A stretch of DNA of 48,095 bases from a virus. The translations under genes were made by a program, and so were the position numbers. Shown one piece after another: positions 845 to 19,472 of the stretch (position 1 is the stretch's first letter; each line of letters opens with the position of its first letter). The DNA is taken from the IMG/VR virus record IMGVR_UViG_3300015371_000063, positions 1-48,095 of that record, one strand, 5' to 3'. The notes beneath the pieces were generated by a model. That model did no database searches. It was not told the origin of the DNA and saw only the letters and a list, made by a program, of their open reading frames with translations.

Positions 845-1213
845 TCATGTTGCGACGCCGCGCTCGGCGAGCATTTCGAGCCATTGGCCATGCTCGGGCG
901 CGCCCTCGTTGGGATCGATCACCGAACGGATGTTGTAGAGCGTGCCCGACCGTTCATCCTTGGCGCGCCAACCGGCATCGACCCGGCGCGTGCGCGAGGA
1001 TTGCCGAACCGTGATGTTGACCACGTTGGTGCCGCCGAGCCGATCGGCCAACACTTGCTCGCCGCCGAGTCTCGGCCGAACGTTGGCGGCACAAACGAAT
1101 TCCGGCGTCGCCGGAAAGGCCGGCCCCTGCGGCACGCCGTATTCCGCGCCGCTCGACGGCGGCGTCGGCCGTTTATAAAACCCGAATTTCGATCGCAGGT
1201 CGCCGGCTTGCAT
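845..1213 (-). CDS. Head-tail adaptor protein (phage head-tail joining family)
   Basis: A 122-residue protein starting MQAGDLRSKFGFYKR, the typical opening of SPP1 gp16/HK97 gp9-like adaptors ('aG.Lr.ri.iqr'). It ends with a segment like 'YNIRSVIDPNEG...WLEMLAERG', matching the family's conserved 'y.I.gi.dp......l.l.a.rg' end. It should sit below the connector ring and bind the tail terminator. The ATG overlaps the stop of the repeat-protein gene (TGATG). In most relatives this gene directly follows the gp6-like connector. Here about 9.2 kb separate the two. Confidence 0.85.
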   Translation of the reverse strand: MQAGDLRSKFGFYKRPTPPSSGAEYGVPQGPAFPATPEFVCAANVRPRLGGEQVLADRLGGTNVVNITVRQSSRTRRVDAGWRAKDERSGTLYNIRSVIDPNEGAPEHGQWLEMLAERGVAT

Positions 1214-4200
1214 CACAACAGCACCGGTGAGCCGGCCGCCAGATTTCCGGCGCCGAGCGTGACCATCGAGGCGGGGTTGGCCTTGTTGATGTCAATGCGG
1301 AACGCGCCTTGCATCGCGGCGGTCACCGTGTCAGCGGAACGAATGTGCCAATCGAGTTGGCCCTCGTCGGCGGCGGCCGATTCCCATGACGCCCGCCACG
1401 ATCCGCCGGCGATCGGCGCCATCGCGATTTGCTCCTCGACCGGTTTGCGGAAGCGGCGATAGGCCAGATAGAGCATCGCCGAAACCGGCTGCGTCGGGTC
1501 GCCGTTCACGTCGACAAAGGTCACCGTCCAGACCACGGTCGAGCCGCGCACCACAATGTCGGCGTTTGCCATCACGGGCCTCGTTATTCCGTCCTCGGCG
1601 ATTTCCTCGACCGTCACGCTGCCGTCCGCCGTGCCGATGCTCACCGAACCGCCGGCCGGCCAAACGCTGACGACGCCGCCGACGATGATCTTGATCGTGA
1701 AGTTCGGCACGCCGAGCACCGGCGCGCCCGAGGAAAGCGACGCGGCGGTCAACACGTAAAATTGCCCGAGCGATGGCCTTCCGAGGATCGGCTTGCCGGC
1801 CGCCAAGGCCCGCGCCACAAGCTTGTTCTGTTGGACGAGCGTCGCGCTATCGAGGATCGGCGCGCCGGCTCGGAGTGCTACCGCGATGAGCTTGTGCTTT
1901 TCCTTGAGCGAGGGCGTGCCGAGGATCGGCGCGCCGGCCGACACCGGGATTGCGGTGAGCGCCGCGATCTGCCGCAACGTCGCGGCGCTGAATTTCGGCA
2001 AACCGGTTTTGAGCGAAACCGCCGCCGGGATGATGTGATTTTGCGTCAGCGACACCGCGCCGAACGCCGGCCGGCCGGCGGCGAGTGAGGCGGCAACGAT
2101 CCTATGGCGTTGCGTGATCGTCGGCGTGCCGAGGATCGGCGAACCGGGCTTGAACGACACCGCCGCCATCGTTCCGTTGATGAACAATTGCGGCGACGGC
2201 AGGATCGGCGCGCCGGTCTTGAGGTTGGCCGCACCGATGAAATGATATTGCTTGAGCGTTGCGGCGCTGAATGCCGGATGGCCGGCCGTCAGCGATGATG
2301 CCGCAAAGGCATTGAGTTGCGTGAGCGCCGGCGTGCCGAGCGATGGCGAACCGGGTTTGAACGATACCGCCGCCAACACTTGCCGCTGCACGAGCGTCGC
2401 CGCGCCAAATGTCGGCGAGGCGGTGGTGAGGTTGGCGGCGGCGAGGCCGTGCCTTTGGGTAAGCGTTGCCGCGCCGAACGACGGCGAACCGGTCTTGAAG
2501 CTGACCGCCGCCAATTGCCCGGCCTGGAACAATTGCGGCGTGCCGAGCGATGGCGCGCCGGTGGTGAGCGATGCGGCCGAAAGCGTAATGAGGCCCGACG
2601 AAATCGTAACCGTTGGTGACGAGCCGAACGGGCCGCTGTTGGTTAGCTCGGCCCCGACCAGCGCGCCCGAGAATACGGTCAGCGCCGGCGCAACATCGAC
2701 GACCGGCGACGGTGCGGTGAGGTTCGCCGGAACGATGGCACCGGCCGGCACCAAGGCCGGCACGCCGAGCGTCGGCGCACCAACCGAAAACGAAACCGCG
2801 AACAGGCCGCCGAATGCGACAAGCGCGGGCGGGGCGTCGACGACTGGCGACGGTGCGGTGAACGATGCGGCGGTGAGCGGAACAGGTTGAGCGAGCGACA
2901 CCGCGCCAAATGTCGGCGAGGTCGTGGTGAGATTGGCGGCGGCCAACACATGCCGTTGGGCGAGCGTGACCGCGCCGAGCGTCGGCGAGGCGGCGGCGAG
3001 GCTGGCGGCGGCAAGCGCGTGCCGCTGCGTCAATGTCGGTGCGCCAAGCGTCGGCGAGCCGATGGTGAGGTTGATCGCGGCCAATTGGCCGGCTTGCAGC
3101 AATTGCGGCGTTGCCAGGATCGGCGAACCGGCCGCCAGGTTTGCCGCCGCCAGCACATGCCGTTGGCCGAGCGTGACCGCGCCAAATGTCGGCGCGCTTA
3201 CGGTAAACGAGGCGGCGGCTAGAACATTGCTTTGGCCGAGGATGACCGCGCCGAACGTCGGCGCGGCGGTCGTGAGGTTCGTCGCCGCAAGATTATGCCG
3301 CTGCGATAGCGAGGCCGCCGAAAACGATGGCGAACCGGTGGCGAGGGCGGTCGCCGAAAACGTGTGACTTTGAACGACCGTCGCGGTGCCGAACGTCGGC
3401 GCGGCGGTCGTGAGGTTGGCGGCATCGAGCGCGTAAAACACCGTAACCGCCGGTGCCGCGTCGGTGACCGCCGCCGTCGAGGTCAACGCGGCGGCGGCGA
3501 GCGGTGTCTCGCCACCCGGAAGGCTAACCGCGCCGAACGTCGGCGCGCCGGTCGTGAGGTTGGCCGCCGTCAAGCTGCCGTCGGATGCGGTCAGCGCCGG
3601 CGCGGCGTCGATTGTCGCGGCGGGAGCGCTGAAACCGCTCGCCGCAACAACGTTTTGTTGAACGATCGTCGCGGCGCCGAACGATGGCGAGCCGGTGGTT
3701 TTCCCGGCGGCGGCGAGGCCGATGATCTCCTTAAACGCGACGTAACAACTCGCATAGATCGCCGACACATAGGTCGGGTCCGACGCGGCGGCGGTGCCGG
3801 TGACGATCCGGTGCTCGGCGCGACAGCATATCTCGCCGACCGTGCCGGTGGTCGCGCTGTTGCCGTTGCCCCATGCCGTCCACGAGGCCGTTGGCGTCAG
3901 GTTGGTATTGTTGCCGACTTGGCTCGCGATCGCGCGAACCCGCAAGCATTCGACGTTGGCCGTCGTAACGTCGAGCGAGGCTGGATCGGCACCGGTGTTG
4001 TTGACCAGCGTGCCGGGCGTGCCTTCGATCGCGACCGTCGCTCCGGCCGTAATCGAAAATTTCCGGGTCACCAAAGCGGAAGCGTCGACCAGCGTGCCGC
4101 TGCCGAACGTCGCGCGGATAATTCCGCCGGAAGCGAGCCCGCTGGTGGCGACGCCGTACCATATTGAGCTTGACGCACCGGCCTGCGCGGTGAGCGCGTT

Positions 4201-4419
4201 GGCGATCTGGATTGCCTTGGTAAGCGCTTGGCCGCCGACGCCAAGCGTCACGCCACTGCAAGCGTTATCGTCGCCGCCGTTGGCGATGTTGTCGGCCGCA
4301 ACGCAGACGACGACAAATTCGCCGGCCGTAATAACGCCCGAGGTCGTGAGATCAAGCGTCGTCTGATTGTTGTTGGTTGAGCCGGTCTGGCCCGGTGAAC
4401 CGAGATCGCCAAATGCCAT
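1213..4419 (-). CDS. Large tandem-repeat virion protein (about 29 x 23-residue repeats)
   Basis: A 1068-residue protein with three parts. Residues 1-233 are a Gly/Thr/Ala-rich beta-type head domain. Residues about 234-908 hold some 29 repeats of 23 residues, consensus close to LAAANLTTGAPTFGAVTLxQ. The C-terminal part (about 910-1050) has beta strands resembling small phage baseplate/fibre Ig-like domains. The protein closes with a half repeat, LGAGNLAAGSPVLL. The regular hydrophobic spacing suggests a beta-solenoid or fibre shaft. It lies in the virion operon between a 164-residue paralog-family protein and the head-tail adaptor, so it is probably a virion fibre. Whether it sits on the head or tail cannot be read from the sequence. 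Confidence 0.8.
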   Translation of the reverse strand: MAFGDLGSPGQTGSTNNNQTTLDLTTSGVITAGEFVVVCVAADNIANGGDDNACSGVTLGVGGQALTKAIQIANALTAQAGASSSIWYGVATSGLASGGIIRATFGSGTLVDASALVTRKFSITAGATVAIEGTPGTLVNNTGADPASLDVTTANVECLRVRAIASQVGNNTNLTPTASWTAWGNGNSATTGTVGEICCRAEHRIVTGTAAASDPTYVSAIYASCYVAFKEIIGLAAAGKTTGSPSFGAATIVQQNVVAASGFSAPAATIDAAPALTASDGSLTAANLTTGAPTFGAVSLPGGETPLAAAALTSTAAVTDAAPAVTVFYALDAANLTTAAPTFGTATVVQSHTFSATALATGSPSFSAASLSQRHNLAATNLTTAAPTFGAVILGQSNVLAAASFTVSAPTFGAVTLGQRHVLAAANLAAGSPILATPQLLQAGQLAAINLTIGSPTLGAPTLTQRHALAAASLAAASPTLGAVTLAQRHVLAAANLTTTSPTFGAVSLAQPVPLTAASFTAPSPVVDAPPALVAFGGLFAVSFSVGAPTLGVPALVPAGAIVPANLTAPSPVVDVAPALTVFSGALVGAELTNSGPFGSSPTVTISSGLITLSAASLTTGAPSLGTPQLFQAGQLAAVSFKTGSPSFGAATLTQRHGLAAANLTTASPTFGAATLVQRQVLAAVSFKPGSPSLGTPALTQLNAFAASSLTAGHPAFSAATLKQYHFIGAANLKTGAPILPSPQLFINGTMAAVSFKPGSPILGTPTITQRHRIVAASLAAGRPAFGAVSLTQNHIIPAAVSLKTGLPKFSAATLRQIAALTAIPVSAGAPILGTPSLKEKHKLIAVALRAGAPILDSATLVQQNKLVARALAAGKPILGRPSLGQFYVLTAASLSSGAPVLGVPNFTIKIIVGGVVSVWPAGGSVSIGTADGSVTVEEIAEDGITRPVMANADIVVRGSTVVWTVTFVDVNGDPTQPVSAMLYLAYRRFRKPVEEQIAMAPIAGGSWRASWESAAADEGQLDWHIRSADTVTAAMQGAFRIDINKANPASMVTLGAGNLAAGSPVLL
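1696..3720 (-). repeat. Tandem 69-bp coding repeats (about 29 units)
   Basis: The repeat array inside the 1068-residue protein. Units average 23 codons and keep the positions L-A-A-x-x-(L/F)-x-x-x-x-P, then G, then a hydrophobic and Gln/His-rich turn (often QRH). Units alternate between a T-x-G-x-P-x-x-G type and a diverged 'P-V-V-D-x-x-P' type. Units are diverged enough in DNA that recent slippage is not obvious. Boundaries are approximate. Confidence 0.85.
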
Positions 4420-4433
4420 TTGGGTCGCCCCTA

Positions 4434-4928
4434 TCAGCTATTTGGCAACCCCACCGTGATCGCCGGCAATGCGAACGTTTGACCGGCGAGAACCGCGACC
4501 GCGCCGGCGAGCGTTCCGGCCGCCAGCAATTGCGATCCGGCGCTGTCGACGGCGGCCCAATGCGTCGCGGTGCCGCTCGTGCTGATCGATCCGCCGCTGA
4601 ATGGCACGGAAACCACGGCCCGGCCCGGCGTCGGATCGGCAGCGGGCGCACCGAACACGTTGCCGGTGCCGAGGTCCTTGAAGCCGAGCGCGAAGGTGCT
4701 GGTGGCGTCGGTGTAGCTGGTCGGTAGATCGGTGCAGAGATAAATGCGATTGGCCTCGCTATCGAGCTTGATCAGGCCGGCATCGAGCACGCGATCGCCG
4801 AGCAAAATCGTCGTGATGTCGGTCGGCGTATCGCCAAGCCAATTGCCGTCGTCGTCAATGAACGAGGTTATGCCATCATCGTCGGTAACGTCGGTTACGC
4901 CGTTGTCGTCGACGAGTTGCTGGCCCAT
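4434..4928 (-). CDS. Structural protein with LDxGL...ICS domain (paralog C)
   Basis: A 164-residue protein. An Asp-rich N-terminal leader (about 40 residues, DDNGVTDVTDDDGI) precedes a domain of about 120 residues. That domain has GDRVLDAGLIKLDSEANRIY, then TSYTDATSTFALG, NVFGAPAADP, and GTATHWAAVDSAGSQLLAAG. The same ordered motifs occur in the genes at 7028-8002 and 10003-10401, so the three are paralogs. Domain function is unknown. Position and small beta-rich composition suggest a virion adaptor or decoration protein to which fibres attach (inference). Confidence 0.7.
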   Translation of the reverse strand: MGQQLVDDNGVTDVTDDDGITSFIDDDGNWLGDTPTDITTILLGDRVLDAGLIKLDSEANRIYLCTDLPTSYTDATSTFALGFKDLGTGNVFGAPAADPTPGRAVVSVPFSGGSISTSGTATHWAAVDSAGSQLLAAGTLAGAVAVLAGQTFALPAITVGLPNS

Positions 4929-4935
4929 AGCATCA

Positions 4936-5979
4936 CTAAATCTCGTTCACTACGGTTCCGGTGTAGGTCGAATGATAGCCGGCATTAACGGCATTACCCC
5001 GGAGGTAAAGTGATCCACCGTTGCCGATTATCAACGAATTGCCGGTGTTGAAAAAATTGAAGTTGCTGGCGTCAATAATCACCTTGCCCCCAGTGATGTT
5101 GGCAAAGTTTCCCTCAACCGTATGGTCACCGGCCCGCACCGATAACTGGCCGCCAGAGACTTTTAAGAAATTTGCCTGTTCGGTTCTAACCCCGTTCAGG
5201 GACACTACACCGCCAGACATACTTAGCATGTAATCGGTATCGGCTTCGGCCGAAATCCCGTTGATCGAAAGCGAGCCGGCAGAAATCTTATAATTATTCG
5301 CGCCGCTTCCGGCGGCGATGCCGCCGCCGCCGATAACGACATTTCCGGTCGCTGCCGAGCCACGAATATCCAGCCCGGCATTCGTGCTGTTGTTGGTGTA
5401 AAAGTAGCAATTAACAAACGTGTTTCCGTGGCCGCCGTTCCCTGACCTAGCGACAACCACACTGTAAACAAAGTCCATAGCCTGAAAGGTATTGCCCTCC
5501 AAGCCCGCGCTTACGCTGCCGTCCCAATTCAGATCGAGCGCGCAAGTATTGGTTCCATTGATATTGAGACGCATGCTCGACATGGAACAGTTGGCCAGTC
5601 CATTGCTGCGAATGAGCGCAGTTAATGTTCCGCCACCCGGCACACTGCCGGTGTAAGTCAGTTGAGTAGCCCTGGTGCCGGACCCGAAGATCATACCGCC
5701 GGCTACGTTGGTCAAATTAAGCGTGCTGCCGACCCGGTAAACTCCGTTCGGGAAGAACACCGGACGATTAAGATGCGCGTTCGTCGTGCCGTGTGGTGAT
5801 CCAGACGAACCAAACGCAGCATCGAATGCGGCCTGGATGGCCGTCGCGTCATTCGTAGAATCGTCGCCCAGCGCGCCGTAATCCTTGACGTTCACAACGT
5901 CGGATAGCCTATCGCCCAATAGACGGGCAGCCGTTCCATCTGACGACTTGAACGACGATTGCCTTAGATTGAGTGTCAT
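4936..5979 (-). CDS. Beta-helix (pectate-lyase-like) spike/fibre protein 2
   Basis: A 347-residue protein with the start DRLSDVVNVKDYGALGDDST, the conserved entry of pectate-lyase-superfamily tailspikes, followed by AIQAAFDAAFG and a long series of short Asn/Gly/Ser-rich beta strands typical of a right-handed beta helix. It ends YTGTVVNEI. The first 75 residues closely match the neighbour at 5976-7022, while the remainder diverges. Its start overlaps the stop of that neighbour (ATGA). Likely a receptor-binding or glycan-degrading spike. No catalytic residues can be assigned by eye. Confidence 0.8.
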   Translation of the reverse strand: MTLNLRQSSFKSSDGTAARLLGDRLSDVVNVKDYGALGDDSTNDATAIQAAFDAAFGSSGSPHGTTNAHLNRPVFFPNGVYRVGSTLNLTNVAGGMIFGSGTRATQLTYTGSVPGGGTLTALIRSNGLANCSMSSMRLNINGTNTCALDLNWDGSVSAGLEGNTFQAMDFVYSVVVARSGNGGHGNTFVNCYFYTNNSTNAGLDIRGSAATGNVVIGGGGIAAGSGANNYKISAGSLSINGISAEADTDYMLSMSGGVVSLNGVRTEQANFLKVSGGQLSVRAGDHTVEGNFANITGGKVIIDASNFNFFNTGNSLIIGNGGSLYLRGNAVNAGYHSTYTGTVVNEI

Positions 5980-7022
5980 ATGTTCTGCCCAACCGTACCG
6001 GAATAGCCGGTTAGGTAACTCGCATTGTCGAAGGTTGAACCCCTCAGATACAACACGCTGCCGTTCTGAAACTTGCCGTTCGTTGAGTGGCAGCCATCGG
6101 CAATGAGCTTGCCGAATCCCTCTGAACCGGCGTAGTAGCCGTTTGCCGCGTCGTGCAAACAGCCCTCAGTGTAAAGCGGGCCGCCCCATGCAAGGAATTG
6201 AGCATCCTTGCTCACGCATCCAAGGATGGCACATGGATCGCCGCCGGTGTTAATCATGCTTGCGCCGTTGTTTTCAAAGTGACAGGCGAACATACAGATC
6301 GCGGAACCGGTCAGCACCGATAGTCCGTGGGTACTACAATTAGTGAACCGACAACCAAAGCATGTGTGATCAAGCGCATTGCCGCTGTCTACAACGCGCA
6401 GCCCCCACGTATGATCATCGAAGTGACAATTTACGAACACACCCTCGGAGCACAGGCTGGCGGTGCCATAGCCAAGCAGGCATCCGGTAACGGCGTGTTT
6501 AAATCTGACGTTCAAAAACAAATTGCCGCTGCCGGCGTTGCTGTTCGCAAAGGTAGGTGACTTGAAATGATGAAAACATACCGGGCTCGCCGGTGAGCCA
6601 GAAAATTCCAGCGTTAAGTCCTCAATTGACGTAAAGGTCATGAAGTTGGCGGTGAGGATGGTTGTTAGACCGTTGTAACCATTGCCATTGCCGCCGGTGT
6701 AAAGGATTTTGGTCGCATTCATCCCGGCGCCAACAATGCGGCCGCCGTAGACGTTGGTGATGTTCAACGGTATCGTTGTGCGATAGATGCCAGCCGGCAG
6801 CACTACCATTCGATTCTGCTTTGCGCCGTCCTCATTATGGGGCCCCCCCGACGATCCGAAGGCGGCATCAAGCGCCGCCTGAAGCGCCGCCCCGTCATCA
6901 GTGGAATTATCGCCCTTGGCGCCAAAATCCTTGACGTTCACAACGTCGGCCAGCCGGGCGCCCCACGTTCGTTGCGCCGTGCCGTCACGCGACTTGAACG
7001 CAAGGGCTTTTGGATTGACCAT
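5976..7022 (-). CDS. Beta-helix (pectate-lyase-like) spike/fibre protein 1
   Basis: A 348-residue protein starting MVNPKALAFKSRDGTA, with ARLADVVNVKDFGAKGDNST and AALQAALDAAFGSSGGP aligning to the neighbouring spike. The C-terminal three quarters differ and are rich in Cys, His and Asn (CHFDDHTWGLRVVDSGN), as in parallel beta-helix rungs. The ATG at 7022 was preferred because it aligns with the paralog's start. A GTG at 7031 overlaps the upstream stop (GTGA) and is an alternative. Both proteins end YxGTV(G/V)xxI, so the last rungs are also conserved. Confidence 0.8.
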   Translation of the reverse strand: MVNPKALAFKSRDGTAQRTWGARLADVVNVKDFGAKGDNSTDDGAALQAALDAAFGSSGGPHNEDGAKQNRMVVLPAGIYRTTIPLNITNVYGGRIVGAGMNATKILYTGGNGNGYNGLTTILTANFMTFTSIEDLTLEFSGSPASPVCFHHFKSPTFANSNAGSGNLFLNVRFKHAVTGCLLGYGTASLCSEGVFVNCHFDDHTWGLRVVDSGNALDHTCFGCRFTNCSTHGLSVLTGSAICMFACHFENNGASMINTGGDPCAILGCVSKDAQFLAWGGPLYTEGCLHDAANGYYAGSEGFGKLIADGCHSTNGKFQNGSVLYLRGSTFDNASYLTGYSGTVGQNI

Positions 7023-7027
7023 GTCGA

Positions 7028-8002
7028 TCACGCCGCCAATTTCGGCCGCCAAAGATAGATCAGCGACGAACCATCGCCGGTGTACTGTGGCGCGTCGAAT
7101 TGCAGCGGTGCTCCATAGGTGGCAACATTCGACATAAAGAATTGCAAATATATTCCCGTGGTCGTCGTGTCGATTTTGTAAGTGAGACTGCATTTGTAGA
7201 AACCATTGACGGCTGCCGCGATCGCCGTCGACACTATGGCCGTCCCCGTCCCGGCGTGGACGATGTCGCTATCGGTGACGGCGCCGGCTTGAAGATCAAA
7301 GATCGCCGTCAAAAACTCGGCCGAGCCGGTCGCCAAGTCGGCCACATTCAGCACCAGATATCGCCTGCCGTTCATCTTGGCATAAACAGAAAACGTTAGA
7401 TTGGTGTCTGCCGGCATGCCGGTTTCGGAGCGGCTTAAAATATGCCGAGTATTGTTGGCGCTTTCGATCAACGACGACGCCGCGCTGCCGCCGCTCGGGT
7501 CTGTCGTCGTGGCGTTGGTAAAGGTTGCCTCGACCGGACCCCATCCGGCGGTCATGCCGGTGCCGCCCGAGGTGATCAGATTGGTGCCGTCAGATTCGGA
7601 ACCGTCCAGCAAACCGCCGGCCGCCGCCCCGAGCATATGCACGGCAAAGGAAGCGAGCGTGAATTGCTGGCCGCTGGTCACGGCAAGCGAGGCCGCCACC
7701 ACGTCGGTCGCGAGCAAGCGCGAGGCTGCGCTATCGACCGCCGCCCAATGCGTCGCGGTGCCGGTGCCGGTCACGCTGCCGTTGGTGATCGCAACCGAGT
7801 TGACGATCCGGCCGTCGGGCGAGCCCGCCGCCGGCGCGGTGAACGCGGCGCCGGCGCCCCAATTTTTGTTGCCCAACGCAAACGTCGCGGTCGCCTCGGT
7901 GTAGGTCGTCGGCTTGGCCGAGCAAATAAAGATTTTATCGCAATCGTTGTCGAGCGCGGCCAAGCCGGCATCGAGCACTTGATCGCCAAGAGTGAGCGCC
8001 AT
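7028..8002 (-). CDS. Structural protein: LDxGL...ICS domain plus jelly-roll-like C-terminus (paralog B)
   Basis: A 324-residue protein. Residues 1-130 are the shared paralog domain (GDQVLDAGLAALDNDCDKIF, TTYTEATATFALG, GTATHWAAVDSAASRLLATD). The rest looks like a carbohydrate-binding beta sandwich: ATTTDPSGGS, FSVYAKMNGRRYLVL, and FYKCSLTYKIDTTTTGIYLQ, ending PQYTGDGSSLIYLWRPKLAA. That last stretch is typical of 'concanavalin-like' repeats in phage fibre proteins. A virion adaptor domain fused to a sugar-binding module is a reasonable reading. It overlaps the next gene's alternative GTG start. Confidence 0.7.
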   Translation of the reverse strand: MALTLGDQVLDAGLAALDNDCDKIFICSAKPTTYTEATATFALGNKNWGAGAAFTAPAAGSPDGRIVNSVAITNGSVTGTGTATHWAAVDSAASRLLATDVVAASLAVTSGQQFTLASFAVHMLGAAAGGLLDGSESDGTNLITSGGTGMTAGWGPVEATFTNATTTDPSGGSAASSLIESANNTRHILSRSETGMPADTNLTFSVYAKMNGRRYLVLNVADLATGSAEFLTAIFDLQAGAVTDSDIVHAGTGTAIVSTAIAAAVNGFYKCSLTYKIDTTTTGIYLQFFMSNVATYGAPLQFDAPQYTGDGSSLIYLWRPKLAA

Positions 8003-8175: not shown

Positions 8176-9993
8176 CTATGCCGCCTTTTCCTGAAACCGT
8201 TGCGCCAACGCATCGTCGACCCGCTCGACCACGCTCGGCCAATCCAGCACCGTCGGTTGGCGGAAAATTCGCACGCTGTCATACCAGGGCGTTCGCTCGC
8301 CCTTGAGGCCCCATCGCCAATCGCAATCGAACGATATGAGCAACCACGTTTCCTTGCCGAGCGCGCCGGCCAGATGCCCGACCGAGGTGTCGACCGTGAT
8401 CACCAGGTCGAGCGAGGCGATGCAGGCCGCCGTGTCGGCGTAGCCGTCGAATTGGTTGACATGCGCGAGAGAAAAGAACCCGCCGTGCCGCGCCGTCAGC
8501 GGGCGAAACAGTTCGTGGTTGAGGTCGCGCGTGTAGGCCCGTTCCGAAAGGGGCGAGCCCTGCCAGCAAAACCCGATCTTGGGCAGATCGCGATCGCGCC
8601 AATTGTCGACCATCTTTTGATCGGCGCGCATGTACGGCTTGCAACGAATGTCGTCGTCGGTTGCGACGCCGAGCGCCCACGGCAACGACGGCAACGAGCA
8701 ATGCTTGGTGTAACGCGGCAGCGTGCGGCCGATGCGACACAGCCGGCCCGGCGGCACCAAGCCGGAAAGCTCGAAAAGCTCGTATTGATTCGCCGGCACC
8801 TCGACGAACGCGTTCGGCGCGCGGGCAAACGCTTGCGGTATGAAGCGGCCGAACATGATCGAGTCGCCAAAGCCTTGCTCGGCCCATAGCAACAGCGGCT
8901 CGTCGGTTTGCTCACCGGCCCATTTCACGCCGTCGTGCGGCCGATCGCCGAACGGCCGCGTGTTGGGTTGCAGATAGCGCGTCTCGTAGGCCGCCCATCC
9001 GGTGCGCCAATTGCCTTGCTGCAATTCGTAGAGCCCGCGAATCATGATCGACGGCAGATGCCCGCTATCCTTCGCAATGTTTTCGTCGAGCAACGCGCGG
9101 GCGCGCTCGGTGTCCTGCATCAGGTTGCAGAGGTGGGCGAGCAACGACCGCGACCATAGGTCGTCAGGCTCGCGCTCGACGATCTTTTCGTAGCGGACAA
9201 TCTCGCGCTGATAAATCTGCGGATCGAACCTCAGATCGGCGACCGGCTCCATGCCGGAAACGGCGATGCCGCTTTCGTTGTGCGCGCCGAGCATGTTGAG
9301 CGACACCACCTCGCCGAACACGTTCTTTTTGTGCCCGGCGAAATTTTGCGGATTCCAAAGCATCGGCCGGTGCCAATACAGCCGGTAGCCGAGGTCGGTG
9401 ATGGCGGCGATCAGCGCCCGGCTTTTGTCCTCGCGGTCGTTTTCGACATAGAGGATCGGCTGAAACCGCTCGATGGTTTGCCGCGCGCCCTCGATCACCT
9501 CAAGCTCGTGGCCCTCGGCGTCGATCTTGAGCATGGTGAGCCGATCGAGCTTGAGCCCGTCGATAGGCTGACAGGTCACGTCGAGCGAGCCACCACCGAC
9601 CTCGACCGCGCCGAAATTGCGATGGCCAAGCTCATCCAGCTTCGGAATTTTCATCAAGCTGTAATGATTGCTCGCCGCCGCCTCGATCACCTCGACCACG
9701 CCAGCAAGATCGTTGGCCGCGACGTTGGCACGCAACAACGCGGCGTTGAGCGGTTGCGGCTCGAACGCGATCAACTTGCCGCCCGGCGCGATCATCTGCG
9801 CCATCGGGATCGTCAGGCTGCCGATGTTGGCCCCGACCTCGACGACGACATTGCCGGGACACAGCATCTTGCGCATGGCGAGCAATTCGCACTCGCCATA
9901 TTCGCCATAGAGCAACAGCGAGCGCCCGACATAGGCGTCATCGGGAAAGAACGAAAACCGGCCGTGTCGGCAGGGCTTGGTGACCGATTGCAT
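8176..9993 (-). CDS. FkbM methyltransferase - TPR - glycosyltransferase fusion
   Basis: A 605-residue three-part enzyme. Residues 1-230 are an FkbM-type SAM methyltransferase: VEVGANIG at 51-58 binds SAM, followed by AFEPQPLN and the family motif KIDAEGHE at 156-163. Residues about 270-345 look like tetratricopeptide repeats (LARLCNLMQD/AKDSGHLPSIMIRGLYELQQ type helices). The C-terminal part (about 360-605) carries VDTSVGHLAGALGKETWLL at 534, the nucleotide-sugar-binding signature of TPR-linked GT9-like glycosyltransferases. It should add and O-methylate a sugar. The target is probably a virion protein encoded next to it (inference). Such a fusion between structural genes is unusual. Confidence 0.85.
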   Translation of the reverse strand: MQSVTKPCRHGRFSFFPDDAYVGRSLLLYGEYGECELLAMRKMLCPGNVVVEVGANIGSLTIPMAQMIAPGGKLIAFEPQPLNAALLRANVAANDLAGVVEVIEAAASNHYSLMKIPKLDELGHRNFGAVEVGGGSLDVTCQPIDGLKLDRLTMLKIDAEGHELEVIEGARQTIERFQPILYVENDREDKSRALIAAITDLGYRLYWHRPMLWNPQNFAGHKKNVFGEVVSLNMLGAHNESGIAVSGMEPVADLRFDPQIYQREIVRYEKIVEREPDDLWSRSLLAHLCNLMQDTERARALLDENIAKDSGHLPSIMIRGLYELQQGNWRTGWAAYETRYLQPNTRPFGDRPHDGVKWAGEQTDEPLLLWAEQGFGDSIMFGRFIPQAFARAPNAFVEVPANQYELFELSGLVPPGRLCRIGRTLPRYTKHCSLPSLPWALGVATDDDIRCKPYMRADQKMVDNWRDRDLPKIGFCWQGSPLSERAYTRDLNHELFRPLTARHGGFFSLAHVNQFDGYADTAACIASLDLVITVDTSVGHLAGALGKETWLLISFDCDWRWGLKGERTPWYDSVRIFRQPTVLDWPSVVERVDDALAQRFQEKAA

Positions 9994-10002
9994 TGCGCCG
10001 CC

Positions 10003-10401
10003 TTAAGCATTCGGAATCGTGATGTCGAACACGTTCAGGCTAAAACTGTTGCCCGAGGTGACGACTTGCGACGACGACAGCGAATTGTGCGCATAGAACG
10101 TCGAGGTGCCGGCGATGATCGCCCACCAATTCGCCGTCCCCGAGGTCAAAAACGTGCCGTCGGTCACCGTCACCGACGACACCTTGCGACCGGTGGCGCC
10201 GGCCGCGCCCGGTGCGCCGAACACGCTGCCCGCCGCGAGGCTTTTCCAGCCAAGCACCGAGGTTCCGCCGGCGGTGTTGCCGGCGACCGAGGCGTGCGTG
10301 ATGGTGGTCGGCTCGCCCGAGCAAATCACGATATGCGTCGGCGCGGTGTCGAGAATGGTTAGCCCGTTGTCCAATACAACGTCCTCAAGTCTGCCAGCCA
10401 T
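10003..10401 (-). CDS. Structural protein with LDxGL...ICS domain (paralog A, shortest)
   Basis: A 132-residue protein consisting only of the domain shared with the genes at 7028-8002 and 4434-4928: DVVLDNGLTILDTAPTHIVI, CSGEPTTITHA, GSVFGAPGAAGATGRKVSS, then a W/A-rich segment and a final hydrophobic strand (VFDITIPNA). It directly follows the gp6-like connector. As the minimal version, it may be the founding copy, with the other two having gained extensions. It could be a head or neck decoration protein. No enzymatic motif seen. Confidence 0.7.
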   Translation of the reverse strand: MAGRLEDVVLDNGLTILDTAPTHIVICSGEPTTITHASVAGNTAGGTSVLGWKSLAAGSVFGAPGAAGATGRKVSSVTVTDGTFLTSGTANWWAIIAGTSTFYAHNSLSSSQVVTSGNSFSLNVFDITIPNA

Positions 10402-10431: not shown

Positions 10432-11013
10432 TCAGGCCATTGCGGTCCAGATGCGATGCGGGCGTAGCAATTGCTCCCAACCCCACGGCAACGCCGTCAC
10501 GGTCTGGTCGATGACGACGTTTTGCCGGTTGTCGTAAAGCGTCGTGAGATTGATCAGGATCGCCGACTCGATGTCCTTGGGAAGCTCGCCAACCGGCGGG
10601 TCGGGTTGGTTGTCGATGTAGCCGGCGCGAAAGCGGACGCGCACGCCGCCGCTCACGCCGACAGGCCAACCGCCCGCCGCAACGAGCCAAGCCGGCTCGC
10701 GCGAGCCGTCGACCGCATAGCCGGCCGGGTCCATCGTCTGTTCGCTCGTGGCGTATCCGTATTTGACCGAGAGCACCTCGATCAACGGCGGATTTGGGAT
10801 GACGATTTCATCGGCCGGGAACGAATCGAGCACGAGGTCGAACGTCTGGTCGACAAACACCCGGCCGGTGAACGTCTCGGCGTGGCGTTCGGCTGCGGCG
10901 AGGTATCGTTGGATGAGATCGTCGTCGTCGTCGTGATCGACGCGCAAATGCCATTTCGCGATCGATAGCTCGACCGCCGTGTAAAGTTGCGGCGTGATCT
11001 GTTTGAGCGCCAT
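10432..11013 (-). CDS. gp6-like head-tail connector protein
   Basis: A 193-residue protein with an N-terminal run typical of the phage gp6-like connector family: VELSIAKWHLRVDHDDDDDL then IQRYLAAAERHAETFTGRVF, followed by a beta section with IEVLSVKYGY and a C-terminal helical segment (DIESAILINLTTLYDNRQN). Connectors of this type form the ring below the portal. The order portal, connector, adaptor is expected, although here an inserted cassette follows. The ATG at 11013 directly abuts the upstream stop. Confidence 0.85.
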   Translation of the reverse strand: MALKQITPQLYTAVELSIAKWHLRVDHDDDDDLIQRYLAAAERHAETFTGRVFVDQTFDLVLDSFPADEIVIPNPPLIEVLSVKYGYATSEQTMDPAGYAVDGSREPAWLVAAGGWPVGVSGGVRVRFRAGYIDNQPDPPVGELPKDIESAILINLTTLYDNRQNVVIDQTVTALPWGWEQLLRPHRIWTAMA

Positions 11014-11814
11014 TTAAGCCCGATACCCCGGCGCGCCGGTTTCGCCGCGATCGCCGCGCTGCCCCTGCGGGCCGCGCTCGCCGGGCTTGCCGTCCTTGCC
11101 GTCACGACCGCGCTTGATTGCGAGCCGCCAATCGCCGTCGATCGCTTCCGGCTTCTTGGCGGTGTCGGCCTGCGCAATGAAAACCGATCCGCCGTGCGAA
11201 ACGCTGTCGCCCTTTCGATATTCGCCGTCGCGCCACACCCCGCGATCGAGCGGGATCGCCGTTTTAATTTCGCGAATGACACCGCCGATTTCGATCACGA
11301 TGGTGCGGCCGTCGTCGGGCGTCGTGCATTTCATCGCCTTGAACTTTTCGTCGATGTAGCCGCGCACCTCGGCCGCGATCAGCGCCTCGATGACGCCGAG
11401 GTCCGACGCATCGCGGCCGTCGCGGCCCGGCTCGCCGCGCTCGCCCGGTGGGCCTTGTGGCCCGCGCTCGCCATCCTTGCCCGGCGGAATTCGCGCCACC
11501 GCCTCGGCGAGCTTGTCGTTGGCCGCGTCGATCTTGACCGCGACCTCGGCGATGATCTTTTCGGTGTCGGCGTCTTTGCCATCGAGGCCCGGCGCGCCGT
11601 CCTTTCCATCGAGGCCCGGCGCGCCGTCCTTGCCGTCGCGACCCGGTGCGCCGTCTTTGCCGGGCGGGCCGGGATCACCGGTCGCGCCCTTGATTGGCTC
11701 GCGCCCTTCAACGGCATCGAGCCGTTGCGCGAGCGGGGAAAACAATTTGTTGATGCGATCGGAGATCGCCGGGCCGATGCCCTCAATGATCGCTTGAATC
11801 TCTTTTGGGGTCAT
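11014..11814 (-). CDS. Collagen-like virion protein
   Basis: A 266-residue protein with an N-terminal helix (about 1-35), three Gly-X-Y tracts (about 43-80, 112-135 and 236-263; e.g. GKDGAPGLDGKDGAPGLDG), a helical spacer between the first two, and a small beta domain at 165-232 (RKGDSVSHGGSVFIAQADTA) resembling chitin-binding type 5/12-like modules. Phage collagen-like proteins trimerise as fibres or head decorations. Its position between portal and connector points to a head- or neck-associated fibre. The DNA of the collagen tracts contains short direct repeats. Confidence 0.75.
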   Translation of the reverse strand: MTPKEIQAIIEGIGPAISDRINKLFSPLAQRLDAVEGREPIKGATGDPGPPGKDGAPGRDGKDGAPGLDGKDGAPGLDGKDADTEKIIAEVAVKIDAANDKLAEAVARIPPGKDGERGPQGPPGERGEPGRDGRDASDLGVIEALIAAEVRGYIDEKFKAMKCTTPDDGRTIVIEIGGVIREIKTAIPLDRGVWRDGEYRKGDSVSHGGSVFIAQADTAKKPEAIDGDWRLAIKRGRDGKDGKPGERGPQGQRGDRGETGAPGYRA

Positions 11815-11823
11815 GGGTGGCCC

Positions 11824-11997
11824 TCAAGCGCCGCCATCGGTCTTTGCCGCGTCGCCGGTCAGGTAAACAATGCCGCCTTGGGCATCGGTAAAAATGACCT
11901 TGATCAACGTCGCCTTGTCTTTCGCAACAGGTTGATGCTCGTCGTTGATGTAAACGACCTCGGCCGGCCTTCCTTGCACGGTCGCGGTGTCGATCAT
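11824..11997 (-). CDS. Small hypothetical protein after portal
   Basis: A 57-residue protein, MIDTATVQGRPAEVVYI..., apparently all beta, with an Asp/Lys-rich middle. It starts by ATGA overlap with the portal-fusion stop (11994-11996) and ends 9 bp before the collagen-like gene. Similar short beta proteins often follow portal genes in alphaproteobacterial phages, but I do not recognise a family. A TTG-initiated form from 12009 is possible. Confidence 0.55.
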   Translation of the reverse strand: MIDTATVQGRPAEVVYINDEHQPVAKDKATLIKVIFTDAQGGIVYLTGDAAKTDGGA

Positions 11998-14636
11998 TTC
12001 ATTTTCCAAACCTTATCGACCGCGCCGTAAAGATTGCGCCATAGCTTTGCGTTCTTTTCGATTTGCGCTTTCGATGGCTTTGGCGGCGTCTCGCTTCCGC
12101 TCAATCGCTCGCGATAGCTGATCACCCGCTCGCCCATGTGATCGGGGAATTCTTTGGTCGTGTATTTGACGCGGGCCATTTCGGCGAGCGTTTCGTGCAT
12201 CGCGCTTTTAGCGTCGACGCCATGCTTGCCGCGATCGATCCAGCGATTCCACCATTCATAGCTGTAGTCCGATACGCCATCCGATGTTGCAAACGCCATG
12301 GTGCCGTGCGAATGCAGCGCCTCGTGCATGACCGTATAAGCCGGATATTTGTCGGCGTAAGCCGGTTTCAAACTGCCGTCGGCTCGCATTACGTCATCGG
12401 TCTTGCCGGGTTCGGCCATGATCGCGTTGAAATCCGTGCGATAGCGGTTAAGCGCGGTTTCGTATTTTATATGTTCGATTTCATGGGCGATCACGCCGTC
12501 GACGTTGCCGAAATTGACGTTGTTGGCAAAGATCGTAATGACCTTTTCGTCCTTGCCAATTTTGTCGGTCCTTGCCAGCCCGGCCGCTGAGCGCATGAGG
12601 CCGTTAAGCTCAAACGTTTGCTTGCCGTCGACGATTTCGATCATCGTCGGATCGAAATCCAAATCCTTAGCCACCTCGTTGACAACCTTTTGCACGTTTT
12701 CGTGCGACATGCCTTGCGGATCGCCCGACGGCTCGCTGATCGTGCCGCCGCCGGTGTCGGTCCAACGACCATCGTCGTCGCGCGGCTGATTAGGGTCGAA
12801 TTTCCGCCCCTTTGCCGCGTCGCCGAATTTTTGATGGTCGATCACCACCAACGCCGGGAAAGTTTTCTTTTTCAAGATTTGCAACGCATCAAAACGGTGC
12901 GCGCCTTCGAGAATATACGGGCCGGCGGCGCGGTTGTGTTCCTCGATGACTACGATGAGCGGTTTGATATGGCCGCTTTGTTCAATGGCCTCGGCAAGCG
13001 CGTTAGTGCGGCGATCGCGGGTCGGATTTCCTGCGGCTGAAAATGCCGAAAATGGGATTTCGCGAATTCCCTCTTGCACGGTGTAGTCGTCAAGGCTTGC
13101 GCCGATCGAGGCGGAGTTTGGAACGTCGTCATCGACGATCAGGCCGGACACTTTTTCGCCGGCAATGGGGAAATCGGCACCGGTATCCGTCCATCTGCCG
13201 TCATCGTCGCGAGGTTGGTTTGGGTCGTATCGCAAAAAAGGGCGGGCAAAGGACTCCGATCCATCACGCTCGAAAAACGCCTTCATCGCCCAACCCGCGA
13301 GCGTTTGGGTGGCCGCCAGGTTGTCCGGCGAATTGTCGTTGGCGGTTTGATCCTGCGGCTGCGGCGCGGGCTTTGGCGCGGTGCCGAACGGATCGGCCTG
13401 CGCGTCGCGCCTTGCAAGAGCCTCAAGCGAAAAGTTTTGTTGTTGAGAGAGCACCGCCTTGCCGCCCGGCGTCGGCGGATAATTCAATTTCTTGCGCGCC
13501 TCGTCGGCCGACAGAATCCCCTTGACCGCGTCGCCGAGCGATTTGATCTGCGTCGCCGAATCCATCCGCAACAGGTCGTCGAGGTTGAACCGCGTGCCGT
13601 AAACCTTGCCCGGCACGGCGAGCAATCCGAGGCCGACGTTGAGGCATTGCTCGATCGACTCGATGTGGATTTGCAGGCATTGCGAATAGTATTGCTGATT
13701 GAGCGCCTCGACGTTGTTGTAAGCTGGCGCGGTGCCGGCGTTGATCATGTAGGCCGGCACGCCGTAAACGCCGGCGATGATGCTGTCGGTCCATTTCAAT
13801 TGATTGATCACGTCGGACTCGACCGCGTTGGTGCTGATCGGCTGGAACGTGAGCCCGTCGCCCAACACGGCGACTTGGCCCGGCCCTCGGGTTTTCCATC
13901 GCTCCCGCAATTGCTCGGCCTTGGCGTCGTCGATGATGTGCGGCGAGGTCAAAACGCCGGTCGGCTGCGCGCCGTTTAGGAATAGCTGCGCGGTGCTTCT
14001 TTGAATGCCGGCGGCGAGCAACGAATTGATGCCGGCGGCGTACAACGGCGGCAGGCCGCAAAGCGGATGGTAGAGCGTATTCCATCGATCGTGGATGATT
14101 TCGGACGCCGGCACCGCCGGCATGTCCTCGGGGATGCCGGATAGGTCGTCGCGATAAAGCTGATAGTAAACCGAGCCGTCCGGCGCCACGAGCGGCCGCG
14201 TGCGCGTGGGATCGAGCACATAAAGCTCGGTCACGACGTTGCGCTGATCGCGCGCCTTGAGCACGTAGGTGTTGCCGCGCGCAAGCTTGCTTTCCATCCA
14301 ACTCTGAATGAACTGGATTCTGTTTTGGTAGCCGTTCGGCGCCTCAAGCACCGGCGAAAATGCCGGCGAATAGGTCGGCGTCCAAATGTCGTTTTCGTCT
14401 TGCTCGACGAGGTTCAACCGCATTTTTGCGATGTCACCGGAAATGAGCGAGATGCAACGAAACTGCGCCCAATAGGACAACGAATCTTCGAGCGTCACCT
14501 CGATGTTGCGCTGCCACGCGCCGGTGAACGGCTCGCGCACCACCGGCCACCAACCGCCGCGCGATGACGGCGGCGACAGCGTCGGCGTCGGCCGCAGCGC
14601 CTTGGCGCGCGTGATTTCGAGGCCGAACAAGCGCAC
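11994..14636 (-). CDS. Portal protein fused to ParB-like and metallopeptidase-like domains
   Basis: An 880-residue protein, about twice the size of an HK97-type portal. Residues about 30-400 are the portal (SLSYWAQFRCISLISGDIA, WKTRGPGQVAVLGDGLTFQP, YGVPAYMIN, LLRMDSATQ). A linker DPNQPRDDDGRWTDTG at 471-486 leads to a ParB/sulfiredoxin-like domain (about 522-600) with EGAHRFDAL. A second identical linker at 614-629 leads to a domain with HEIEH at 718-722, a zincin-type metal site, and further His/Glu motifs (MHEALHSH, MHETLAEM). Such linkers are known at joints between phage head proteins and enzymatic cargo. I infer the domains are carried in the virion. The start at 14636 follows a 6-bp gap. 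Confidence 0.85.
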   Translation of the reverse strand: MRLFGLEITRAKALRPTPTLSPPSSRGGWWPVVREPFTGAWQRNIEVTLEDSLSYWAQFRCISLISGDIAKMRLNLVEQDENDIWTPTYSPAFSPVLEAPNGYQNRIQFIQSWMESKLARGNTYVLKARDQRNVVTELYVLDPTRTRPLVAPDGSVYYQLYRDDLSGIPEDMPAVPASEIIHDRWNTLYHPLCGLPPLYAAGINSLLAAGIQRSTAQLFLNGAQPTGVLTSPHIIDDAKAEQLRERWKTRGPGQVAVLGDGLTFQPISTNAVESDVINQLKWTDSIIAGVYGVPAYMINAGTAPAYNNVEALNQQYYSQCLQIHIESIEQCLNVGLGLLAVPGKVYGTRFNLDDLLRMDSATQIKSLGDAVKGILSADEARKKLNYPPTPGGKAVLSQQQNFSLEALARRDAQADPFGTAPKPAPQPQDQTANDNSPDNLAATQTLAGWAMKAFFERDGSESFARPFLRYDPNQPRDDDGRWTDTGADFPIAGEKVSGLIVDDDVPNSASIGASLDDYTVQEGIREIPFSAFSAAGNPTRDRRTNALAEAIEQSGHIKPLIVVIEEHNRAAGPYILEGAHRFDALQILKKKTFPALVVIDHQKFGDAAKGRKFDPNQPRDDDGRWTDTGGGTISEPSGDPQGMSHENVQKVVNEVAKDLDFDPTMIEIVDGKQTFELNGLMRSAAGLARTDKIGKDEKVITIFANNVNFGNVDGVIAHEIEHIKYETALNRYRTDFNAIMAEPGKTDDVMRADGSLKPAYADKYPAYTVMHEALHSHGTMAFATSDGVSDYSYEWWNRWIDRGKHGVDAKSAMHETLAEMARVKYTTKEFPDHMGERVISYRERLSGSETPPKPSKAQIEKNAKLWRNLYGAVDKVWKMK
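12750..12797 (-). repeat. Second DPNQPRDDDGRWTDTG linker copy
   Basis: Encodes residues 614-629 of the portal fusion, identical in protein to the first copy at 13179-13226. The DNA copies differ at several third codon positions, so the amino acids are kept by selection or the duplication is old. It separates the ParB-like from the metallopeptidase-like domain. Confidence 0.85.
13179..13226 (-). repeat. First DPNQPRDDDGRWTDTG linker copy
   Basis: Encodes residues 471-486 of the portal fusion and marks the joint between the portal body and the ParB-like domain. Together with the second copy it frames that domain as an exchangeable module. Confidence 0.85.
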
Positions 14637-14929: not shown

Positions 14930-17002
14930 TTATCGAGGTTGCGGCTGCCGAGTGGCGGCTTCAAGCTGCGCCCGCTGCGCCTCTTGCTGCACCCGTCGCG
15001 TGGTTTCTTCTTCGTCCTTCAGCCGTTGCGTTATTGCCGCCTCGTCGAGCGTCGGCGCGATGGTGACACCGGAAAGATATTGCACCGAGCCGGTGCGCGC
15101 CTTGACCCACGTGATGAAACGCTCGGCCCTGATGCCGACCATGTTCGCCTGCCACAGCGAAACCATGATGGTTGTCGCGGTGGCCGGCGAGTCCGGTGCG
15201 CTGTCCATCTGCAACGACGCCTCGGTCGAAACCGAGAAGTCGACGCCGCCGTCATCGGCCAGCAAGATTTCCGGCGCGTTGATCGCGATGACGAGCCCGG
15301 TGGGCACGCTTTGCGAGGCGACCACCGGAATGCCTTCCAGCGTGCCGCCCTCCTTGCTCATGCCGGGGAAATCCTGCATGCCGAATGCGTTGCGGCTCAT
15401 GCCGATGCCAAGCGCAAGCGACGAACGCATGACCAGCACCAAGCCGTCGGTCGATTGGTTCGCCGTCGCATAGGTGGCGAGCAACGTGTAGAGGTCGGTG
15501 CGCAACGCTTCCGGCGTCGTGCCGGTCGATGGAATCGCCGACACCCCGTTGGTCACCGATGCCGGCGACACGCCGGTCACCGCCGCGATCGCCGGGTCGA
15601 GGAACGTGGTGTCGACCAGCTTGGTGATGGCCGCAACCAGCGAGTTGCGGATCAGCGTTTCCGCCGACGGCGATGAGAATTTCATCAATTCGACCGTGAT
15701 CGGAACGATGCCCGCGAGCTTGTGGAAGGCGAGCGACACGCTGTCGAACGCCATCGGACTGACCGGCTTGGGCTTGCCCTCGCCGACCCACGCCGCCACC
15801 GCGCCGAGTGTTTCGCGCGGCACCTTGATATTGAACGGCACCCGAGTGAGTCCAGGGATGCGGTTGACCACCGATGCCGCATAAAGCAATTCGATGAATT
15901 CGTTGGTGAGGTTTTGCGCCACCACCAACGGCCCGGCCCACGTCGCGTCGGTCGTGGTGCCGGCCGCCACCGCAGCGCGTTCGATAACGTCCATCGGAAT
16001 CTTGAGCACCGACTCGATGTCGTCGCCCCATCCCTTCGAGCGCGCGATTTCGGCCGGATGAACGTGGTGCTCCTTGGCGAGATAGCGAGCGCCAAACAGC
16101 CGGATATAGCCGACGCCCTTCGGCAGCGCTGGCCGCACGGCGATGACCGGCGAGCCCCGCGATTCCGATGCGGCGCGTTGCGTTGTGCCTTGCACGCCGC
16201 GCGCCTGTTCCATGTTGCGCTTTTCCGAGGCGCGCAACCGCACCAGATGCTCGTCGATTTCCTTCACCTCGATGTCGAGGCCGTCGTAGGTTTCCTTCTG
16301 GGCGCTGTCGAGCGTGATGCCCTTGTCGGAAACCTCGTTCATCAGCGCGTCCATTTCCGCCACCTTGGCGGCGCGCGTGTTCTCAAATGCCGAAATCTGT
16401 TCGGCGAAAGTTTGCTTTGCCATAGCTCGGCGGCCCTCCAGGGCCTTGATCACTGTCGTGGTTGATCGTTTTGCCGAGTCGCCGGCGGGGTTTTGCTCGA
16501 CGCTGCGTTGCGTTTTGCCGGTCGCGGCCAGCAATGCAGCGTCGATCGATTTCAATTGCGTGATGACGGCCTCCGGCTGCGCCGGGATCGACACCAAGGA
16601 AAGCTCGAGCCATTCCCATTTTTTGAAACGGAAACCGTTTTCGATGACCTCGATGCCGTCCTCGATGGCGCGAAAGCCGATCGAGACGAACTGCCGAAGC
16701 CCATGCTTGACGAAATGCCAAGCCTTGTCGGTCAACCGCTTGGCGTCGCCGTCCTCGTCGATGCGCGTGATCTTGGCGCGGAACGGAATCCCGCTCTTGT
16801 TCGGCTTGGCAAATTCGACGTGGCCGACTTGGTCGCGGCTCGAATGATCGAGTAGGAGCGGCATCGGCAATTTGAATTGCGCGCCCAACGGCTCGACCAC
16901 GTCGCCAACGCGATCCGGCGTCGGCGTCGAGGCGATGCCTTCGAACGTGCGCGTGTGCTCGGTGATTTCCTTGATTTCCAAAATGGCAAAGGCGCGGTTC
17001 AT
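14930..17002 (-). CDS. Prohead protease - major capsid protein fusion (HK97 type)
   Basis: A 690-residue polyprotein. Residues 1-170 form an HK97-family U35-like prohead protease: RTFEGIASTPTPDRVGDVV, LLLDHSSRDQVG with the catalytic-type His, and LELSLVSIPAQPEA with the conserved Ser. Residues about 195-290 are coiled coil, equivalent to the delta/scaffold region. Residues about 300-670 are an HK97-fold capsid (VVAQNLTNEFIELL, FNIKVPRETLGAVAAWVGEG, VPITVELMKFSS, FPGMSKEGGTLEGIPVV). Protease, scaffold and capsid are usually separate or pairwise fused. The ATG at 17002 was chosen because it begins the protease domain (MNRAFAILEIKEI). The gene comes before the portal, the reverse of the usual order. 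Confidence 0.9.
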   Translation of the reverse strand: MNRAFAILEIKEITEHTRTFEGIASTPTPDRVGDVVEPLGAQFKLPMPLLLDHSSRDQVGHVEFAKPNKSGIPFRAKITRIDEDGDAKRLTDKAWHFVKHGLRQFVSIGFRAIEDGIEVIENGFRFKKWEWLELSLVSIPAQPEAVITQLKSIDAALLAATGKTQRSVEQNPAGDSAKRSTTTVIKALEGRRAMAKQTFAEQISAFENTRAAKVAEMDALMNEVSDKGITLDSAQKETYDGLDIEVKEIDEHLVRLRASEKRNMEQARGVQGTTQRAASESRGSPVIAVRPALPKGVGYIRLFGARYLAKEHHVHPAEIARSKGWGDDIESVLKIPMDVIERAAVAAGTTTDATWAGPLVVAQNLTNEFIELLYAASVVNRIPGLTRVPFNIKVPRETLGAVAAWVGEGKPKPVSPMAFDSVSLAFHKLAGIVPITVELMKFSSPSAETLIRNSLVAAITKLVDTTFLDPAIAAVTGVSPASVTNGVSAIPSTGTTPEALRTDLYTLLATYATANQSTDGLVLVMRSSLALGIGMSRNAFGMQDFPGMSKEGGTLEGIPVVASQSVPTGLVIAINAPEILLADDGGVDFSVSTEASLQMDSAPDSPATATTIMVSLWQANMVGIRAERFITWVKARTGSVQYLSGVTIAPTLDEAAITQRLKDEEETTRRVQQEAQRAQLEAATRQPQPR

Positions 17003-17043
17003 GGCGACCGCCTTTCGAATTGATGTTGTTGAGGCGAGAGAGG

Positions 17044-19461: not shown

Positions 19462-19472
19462 TTGTAAAACAG

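Follow-up and report, generated by a model that had tools for sequence, protein, structure and literature searches.

The window analysed here is the whole of the 48,095-bp virus record IMGVR_UViG_3300015371_000063, which is probably a complete genome, circular or circularly permuted, since the record has a 123-bp direct terminal repeat at its ends. A second IMG/VR contig comes from the same phage (99.99% identity across 14,140 bp), and a plain protein scan for close relatives of the enzyme considered below recovered this second contig and nothing else. The enzyme is encoded by an open reading frame that starts with ATG, and its gene forms, with the gene just upstream, a two-gene cassette inside a structural operon whose gene names were taken from profile matches of the scanned window proteins. 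The features of the operon, of the enzyme and of the upstream protein, hereafter ED, are the following:

17044-18747, minus strand: terminase (profile match)
14930-17092, minus strand: head protein/protease (profile match)
11994-14636, minus strand: portal, 880 aa (profile match)
11014-11814, minus strand: collagen-like protein (profile match)
10432-11013, minus strand: head-tail adaptor, upstream of the cassette (phrog_442, E 5.1e-27)
10003-10401, minus strand: ED protein, 132 aa, predicted fibre/neck adaptor fold (alignment and predicted model)
10144-10146, minus strand: codon of T86 of the ED protein, candidate acceptor residue (hypothesis; alignment and model)
8176-9993, minus strand: FkbM > TPR-like > GT-B fusion enzyme, 605 aa (open reading frame, profiles, model)
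9274-9993, minus strand: FkbM methyltransferase domain of the enzyme, residues 1-240 (profiles, motifs, fold 2py6)
8971-9216, minus strand: TPR-like helical linker of the enzyme, residues 260-341, five helices (model; weak TPR_19)
8179-8961, minus strand: GT-B glycosyltransferase domain of the enzyme, residues 345-605 (fold, family matches, motifs)
7028-8002, minus strand: N-terminal ED domain and GTA-type head spike fibre domain (ED alignment; NCBIfam)
5976-7193, minus strand: pectate-lyase-fold spike-like protein (profile match)
4936-5979, minus strand: second pectate-lyase-fold spike-like protein, paralogue of 5976-7193 (profile match)
4434-4928, minus strand: third ED-domain protein, 164 aa (ED alignment)
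1213-4419, minus strand: 1068-aa repeat protein with LTTxxPTFG repeats (sequence repeats)
848-1216, minus strand: head completion protein (profile match)
162-644, minus strand: neck protein (profile match)

The operon runs on over the record ends, where genes for the tail tube, the tape measure and tail fibre/tip proteins follow. The profile matches of the neighbours on both sides bear out the statement of the preliminary description that the enzyme gene lies inside structural genes, and the gene order points to late expression. The portal has a long C-terminal extension with weak ParB_N-like and peptidase-like matches, in which the motif PNQPRDDDGRWTDTG occurs twice. Outside the operon, a tRNA-Val(cac) predicted by ARAGORN at 21247-21334 on the minus strand lies within a primase/helicase open reading frame (20529-22007) and is probably spurious.

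The sequence makes the FkbM assignment of the N-terminal domain unequivocal. Indeed, Pfam PF05050 covers residues 52-205 (E 9.6e-19, 68.6 bits versus a cut-off of 22.7), NCBIfam TIGR01444 is matched at E 7.3e-23 (81.6 bits versus a cut-off of 37.7), and the two motifs on which this identity had initially been based, VEVGANIG and KIDAEGHE, are both present. In the predicted model of the enzyme (mean pLDDT 87.5), the FkbM part has a SAM-binding Rossmann fold resembling 2py6 (Foldseek E 5.3e-8, Z 16.2); the VIA structure list obtained with the whole-enzyme model as query consists exclusively of methyltransferases. A 15-member alignment, made of the window protein and 14 others that are 44-55% identical to it, keeps GANIG, E78, K156-I157-D158 and E163 invariant in all members, as well as, at fixed positions, the transferase motifs EQGxGD (372-377), SER, RD and VDTxxxH (534-540); the catalytic roles of these residues are presumably those of the FkbM and glycosyltransferase (GT) families.

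The C-terminal domain is supported as GT9-like, or heptosyltransferase-like, by family matches and by fold. Glyco_transf_9 (PF01075) matches the window protein at E 0.0039 with 17.0 bits, under the cut-off of 22, and the domain is therefore named GT9-like and not GT9; the same profile is found at E<=0.01 in 13 of the 15 aligned members (best 3.5e-5). The predicted model has a GT-B fold that aligns with Escherichia coli heptosyltransferase II (1psw, Foldseek E 7.4e-6, TM by target 0.47). The sugar-transfer domain had been proposed from the stretch VDTSVGHLAGALG, and this reading holds, D535, T536 and H540 being invariant in 15 of 15 members. The TPR label is the weakest part of the domain reading: five helices are present at residues 260-341 of the model, but TPR_19 is matched only at E 0.002, below its cut-off, and in one of the 15 members. 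With 19-residue Kyte-Doolittle windows, the hydropathy maximum is 1.37 for the window enzyme and 1.73 among the 15 members, so that a strong membrane segment is absent and the enzyme would be soluble. None of the window proteins that were scanned points to a sugar-nucleotide (donor) gene.

The ED gene, which did not figure in the preliminary description, ends with a stop codon 9 nt before the ATG of the enzyme gene, and its product was named after its LEDxVLD start. The 132-aa protein has no match in Pfam, PHROG or NCBIfam, and a PDB sequence search gave no credible match, its sole hit being an antibody (E 0.35). An AlphaFold2 model (pLDDT 84.5, pTM 0.79) was compared with known structures: the best six PDB rows of Foldseek (E 1.2e-3 to 3.8e-2) all belong to phage necks or fibres, and VIA-align gives Z scores of 9.2 for 9c39_K, 8.8 for 9mt4_M, 7.5 for 9rkv_A and 7.4 for 8jou_a, versus at most 5.9 for unrelated rows. 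PRMT rows in the same fold list score under the phage rows and were set aside as a chance beta-barrel likeness. The predicted fold of ED is thus fibre/neck adaptor-like, a fold that alone says nothing of function.

Two further ED domains are encoded in the window, one at the N-terminus of the 7028-8002 product and one in the 4434-4928 protein. In the former, residues 136-322 score over the cut-off of NF048003, the NCBIfam profile for GTA head spike fibre domains, and this fusion of an ED domain to a GTA-type spike domain suggests that the phage bears spikes on its capsid. For RcGTA, the head spike fibre is reported as capsule-binding in the part of the source considered (PMC10218006). The ED gene lies beside neck or fibre genes in the window, in Roseobacter phage CRP-6, where a relative has the portal gene on one side and two tail-fibre genes on the other, and in other cassette loci. 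At ED loci unlinked to the enzyme, the next gene mostly follows within some tens of nt and often belongs to a fibre-containing cluster. Since unlinked ED genes often closely precede fibre-cluster genes, and given the CRP-6 order, the enzyme gene appears to have been inserted between adaptor and fibre genes.

Viral contigs were scanned with the ED alignment (best 80 of 129 confirmed loci) and with the enzyme alignment (best 80 of 431 confirmed loci); both scans were seeded by short conserved peptides and kept the best 80, so that distant members were missed. Among the best 80 of the 129 ED loci, 25 have the ED gene followed, in the same orientation and at a distance of at most about 2 kb, by an FkbM or FkbM-GT gene; these are also the 25 loci closest to the ED alignment, one of them being the same phage; the remaining 55 include no FkbM gene and a single GT gene (L153; L numbers denote loci). 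Conversely, among the pooled viral matches listed, ED accompanies the FkbM>GT fusion in 39 of 39 loci, corresponding to 24 distinct contigs by name, in all of which the ED gene is upstream on the same strand. Where the enzyme gene is truncated by a contig end, ED is likewise present (6/6 loci, 4 contigs). It was found in none of the 128 other loci (FkbM only, 95; FkbM and GT apart, 24; GT>FkbM fused, 9), some of which are one contig fetched twice, an absence that holds for the flank of at most 8-10 kb carried by the loci, many contigs being fragments.

Furthermore, ED distances correlate with enzyme distances (r = 0.70, with none of 5000 permutations as high; 21 non-redundant pairs, enzyme identities 42-85%), which suggests a shared history of the two genes. 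Because the linked ED proteins seem to form a single clade, the co-occurrence and the T86 signature presented below are not independent events.

The spacing between the ED and enzyme genes is 6-26 nt in 5 of the 24 pairs listed (9 nt in the window, 26 in L090, 19 in L107, 6 in L110 and 9 in L263); other pairs are further apart, the distance reaching about 2.1 kb. Four proteins encoded in the wider gaps were scanned: two are HNH/homing endonucleases (L093, L095), whose insertion did not split the pairing, and two gave no match (L092, L100). The genes upstream of the cassette vary. The window has a head-tail adaptor there and L091 a major head protein, whereas a tail protein of phrog_52 is encoded in L097 and L112 and tail-fibre-type proteins in L108, L110 and L090; in L091 and L090, these head or fibre-type genes are near the cassette, not always immediately adjacent. 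Three other upstream proteins scanned (two of L092, one of L113) and one of L090 had no match. Downstream of the enzyme, long proteins are encoded, with strong tail-fibre matches in L100, and most of the other downstream proteins scanned have no family match. The best reading of these neighbourhoods is that the two-gene cassette has spread among phages of differing architecture, at the start of fibre modules.

Relatives were also sought in annotated phages and in bacterial genomes. Five of 50,697 annotated phage records match part of the enzyme, none of them over 80% of it, and the ED protein of L108 matches one annotated phage record. ED was found in 0 of 17 genomes searched. Of 385 genomes in one class, a single one gave a match, which was weak and whose 3.4-kb locus has no long open reading frame for the enzyme, so that the search pointed to no prophage host. 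When genomes were scanned with the enzyme, the loci recovered were mostly FkbM-only, but a Rhodospirillales MAG (L169) has an FkbM>GT fusion without ED; outside viruses, the FkbM>GT order is thus not sufficient to identify the cassette.

Several other arrangements of these domains were observed. FkbM and TPR-GT genes are adjacent, with no ED, in viral contigs L046, L047, L050 and L059; a GT gene lies about 1.4-2.1 kb upstream of FkbM in L062-L064, L075 and L079; and reverse GT>FkbM viral fusions of 706-989 aa, with no ED, occur in L020, L022, L023, L290-L293 and L295. In podovirus ctDrO704 (L006, MW202512.1), an unrelated phage, a TPR-GT is encoded at 19284-20861 shortly behind the major capsid gene, with other sugar-type annotations near. 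Its protein P0005, annotated fkbm near this TPR-GT, has no FkbM profile match and was discarded as a candidate; another methyltransferase there was matched.

Taken together, we consider it probable that this soluble bifunctional enzyme glycosylates and O-methylates a protein of the fibre module of the virion, most likely the ED adaptor. The scheme that we infer for catalysis, donor, acceptor, site, timing and benefit would be as follows: (i) the newly made adaptor would be bound in the cytoplasm, the helical linker helping to dock it, by analogy with the TPR domain of FlmG and flagellin; (ii) the GT-B domain would add one or more sugars, probably O-linked to Ser/Thr, from a host sugar nucleotide, a donor that is assumed because the window proteins scanned include no sugar-donor gene; (iii) the FkbM domain would then O-methylate the attached sugar, forming a methyl cap. 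The benefit could be protective, receptor-related or structural.

The ED protein itself offers a candidate site. When 24 linked and 46 unlinked distinct ED sequences are compared, 12 columns discriminate between the two groups, one of them being a start-Met artefact. At the T86 column, threonine is present in 24/24 linked sequences versus 0/46 unlinked ones, which have Ala or Gly in 40 cases and Ser in 2. In the AlphaFold2 model, T86-S87 form the turn between strands 79-84 and 88-97. By eye, Thr is also present at this position in non-adjacent ED paralogues (L108, L111 and the 4434-4928 protein of the window), and absent from the ED domain of the 7028-8002 product. T86 as a proven site was dropped, as the linked ED proteins look like a single clade, and the alignment offers it as a suggestion for the modified residue. 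That the ED adaptor is itself the acceptor, with T86 as the leading candidate residue, is a serious possibility, falling somewhat short of probable; the fibre attached to the adaptor is an alternative acceptor. More tentatively, the two genes could constitute a glyco-adaptor cassette, moving among phages with head-, neck- or tail-borne fibres, in which a dedicated enzyme puts a methyl-capped glycan on the hairpin residue T86, the sugar being part of the virion-fibre joint or masking it.

Acceptors may also be host proteins or polysaccharides. If, during infection or in the lysogenic state, the enzyme altered a polysaccharide of the host surface (LPS core, O-antigen or capsule), it could block superinfection, and its gene could adjoin fibre genes since both concern the same receptor. 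The heptosyltransferase-like GT domain is in keeping with such a role, as are the genes rfb for LPS adjoining one of the closer FkbM relatives in Azospirillum, and a phrog_1 integrase in the window means that this phage could be capable of lysogenic conversion. An FkbM gene and an LPS-type GT are also described for a rhizobial prophage in the part of the source considered (PMC5537653). However, every viral FkbM>GT fusion among the matches listed is tied to an adaptor-like gene, and a strong membrane segment is lacking in the enzyme. Seroconverting genes are a feature of temperate phages, in which they lie close to the attachment site. In the window, the integrase gene is more than 20 kb from the enzyme gene, and with the window as positive control a tyrosine integrase matching phrog_1 was found in 0 of 11 other cassette records of 31-89 kb (up to 88.8 kb), which may be fragments. 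The phrog_1 profile was used here in place of PF00589, which matched 0 of 12 records, missing even the integrase of the window, and is uninformative. We consider an action on host surface polysaccharides unlikely. The initial view that a virion protein, and not host LPS, is the substrate is thereby strengthened, through the adaptor-gene pairing, the position in fibre modules, the lack of a strong membrane segment and the 11 records without phrog_1, and would probably apply.

The preliminary description had further proposed, as natural acceptor sites, the Ser/Thr-bearing LTTxxPT repeats of a neighbouring fibre. These repeats exist, with five copies between 2410 and 3558, but they belong to the 1068-aa protein at 1213-4419, which is separated from the enzyme gene by four genes and is not its immediate neighbour. 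With a loose motif, and counting loci with at least 6 kb downstream, repeats are more frequent with the enzyme, being present in 8 of 12 enzyme-linked loci (6 of 10 distinct ones, three near-identical linked loci being merged) versus 7 of 27 unlinked loci. Four of the 10 distinct cassette phages are thus devoid of them (L099, L100, L112 and L113), and some phages without the enzyme have them. LTTxxPTFG-type repeat proteins are observed in ED-gene phages both with and without the enzyme; judged from these sequences, the repeats would go with fibre modules and not strictly with the enzyme. The repeats are therefore an improbable acceptor, and the adaptor is favoured because ED is present every time while repeats are missing in 4 of 10 cassette phages. 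The preliminary description was thus right on the enzyme and probably right on the substrate class, with the evidence pointing to the adaptor and not to the repeat fibre.

Gene linkage is common in phage modules, and the link between ED and the enzyme may be mere genetic linkage in a shuffling fibre module, the enzyme acting on a small molecule or on another protein, or being inactive; this is very improbable, both motif sets being kept in the 15 homologues and the pairing having remained intact after endonuclease insertion. Modification of phage DNA or nucleotides was also considered, and the domains give it no support.

To our knowledge, few systems of phage virion glycosylation are known, and the virion target of orphan phage glycosyltransferases is usually not known. 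Comparative genomics here proposes an enzyme-acceptor pair of 605 aa and 132 aa. If true, phages would carry, and pass between them, a dedicated system for protein glycosylation whose single enzyme also methylates, and sugars would be expected at the fibre attachment point. Among the open-licence PMC papers listed by literature searches, no title or abstract opening describes an FkbM-TPR-GT phage enzyme or its pairing with ED.

Among bacteria, pairs of TPR-GT and FkbM provide the same two activities in Niveispirillum (L003), Arcobacter (L004), Herbaspirillum (L171) and Reyranella (L196), but as separate genes or in the reverse fusion order, and ED was not found in the loci or genomes searched (by profile run only for L003 and L004). 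On the Arcobacter plasmid CP146529.1 (1-18594), a SapC-family gene, FkbM and TPR-GT genes lie beside genes for type I secretion and a coding sequence of about 25.7 kb; the enzymes there may glycosylate a giant protein that is secreted, and this setting fits protein over lipid acceptors. Regarding structure, ED shares its predicted fold with 9c39 (Sf14 neck), 9mt4 (Bas63 connector), 9rkv (7-7-1 tail fibres) and 8jou (GP4 fibre-tail adaptor), although these four entries have no credible sequence match to ED and their titles are silent on glycosylation.

The analogy with flagellin-modifying enzymes, drawn at the outset, is apt. As far as described in the part of the source considered, FlmG of Caulobacter is a soluble flagellin O-glycosyltransferase of 596 aa made of TPR and GT-B parts, both of which are needed: the TPR part binds flagellin and the GT part alone fails (PMC7591256). 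By this description, the phage enzyme resembles FlmG in size, in its predicted solubility and in its C-terminal GT-B domain, its weakly matched TPR-like part being a possible further likeness, and FlmG acts on a structural filament protein. It differs in that FlmG has a long N-terminal TPR part, no methyltransferase being described in that part of the source, and is chromosomal and pseudaminic acid-dependent, whereas the phage enzyme begins with FkbM, has a short helical linker and is encoded in a phage genome (PMC7591256). In enterobacterial flagellin islands, a methyltransferase domain is reported in most GT41 enzymes as well, and FkbM genes occur often (PMC4875605, in part). These GT41 enzymes, whose proposed target is a filament protein of the surface, likewise combine methyltransferase and glycosyltransferase in one protein, but they belong to host islands and have AdoMet_MTase domains, while the phage enzyme is FkbM and GT9-like (PMC4875605). 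Finally, the glycosyltransferases of mycobacteriophages Che8 and Rita are proposed, in the part of the source considered, to decorate their own virion proteins (PMC11256854). There, the glycans are reported on capsid proteins and the genes of the related phage Maravista lie near the 3' genome end (PMC11256854), whereas the fusion enzyme described here is tied to an adaptor-like gene within fibre modules.
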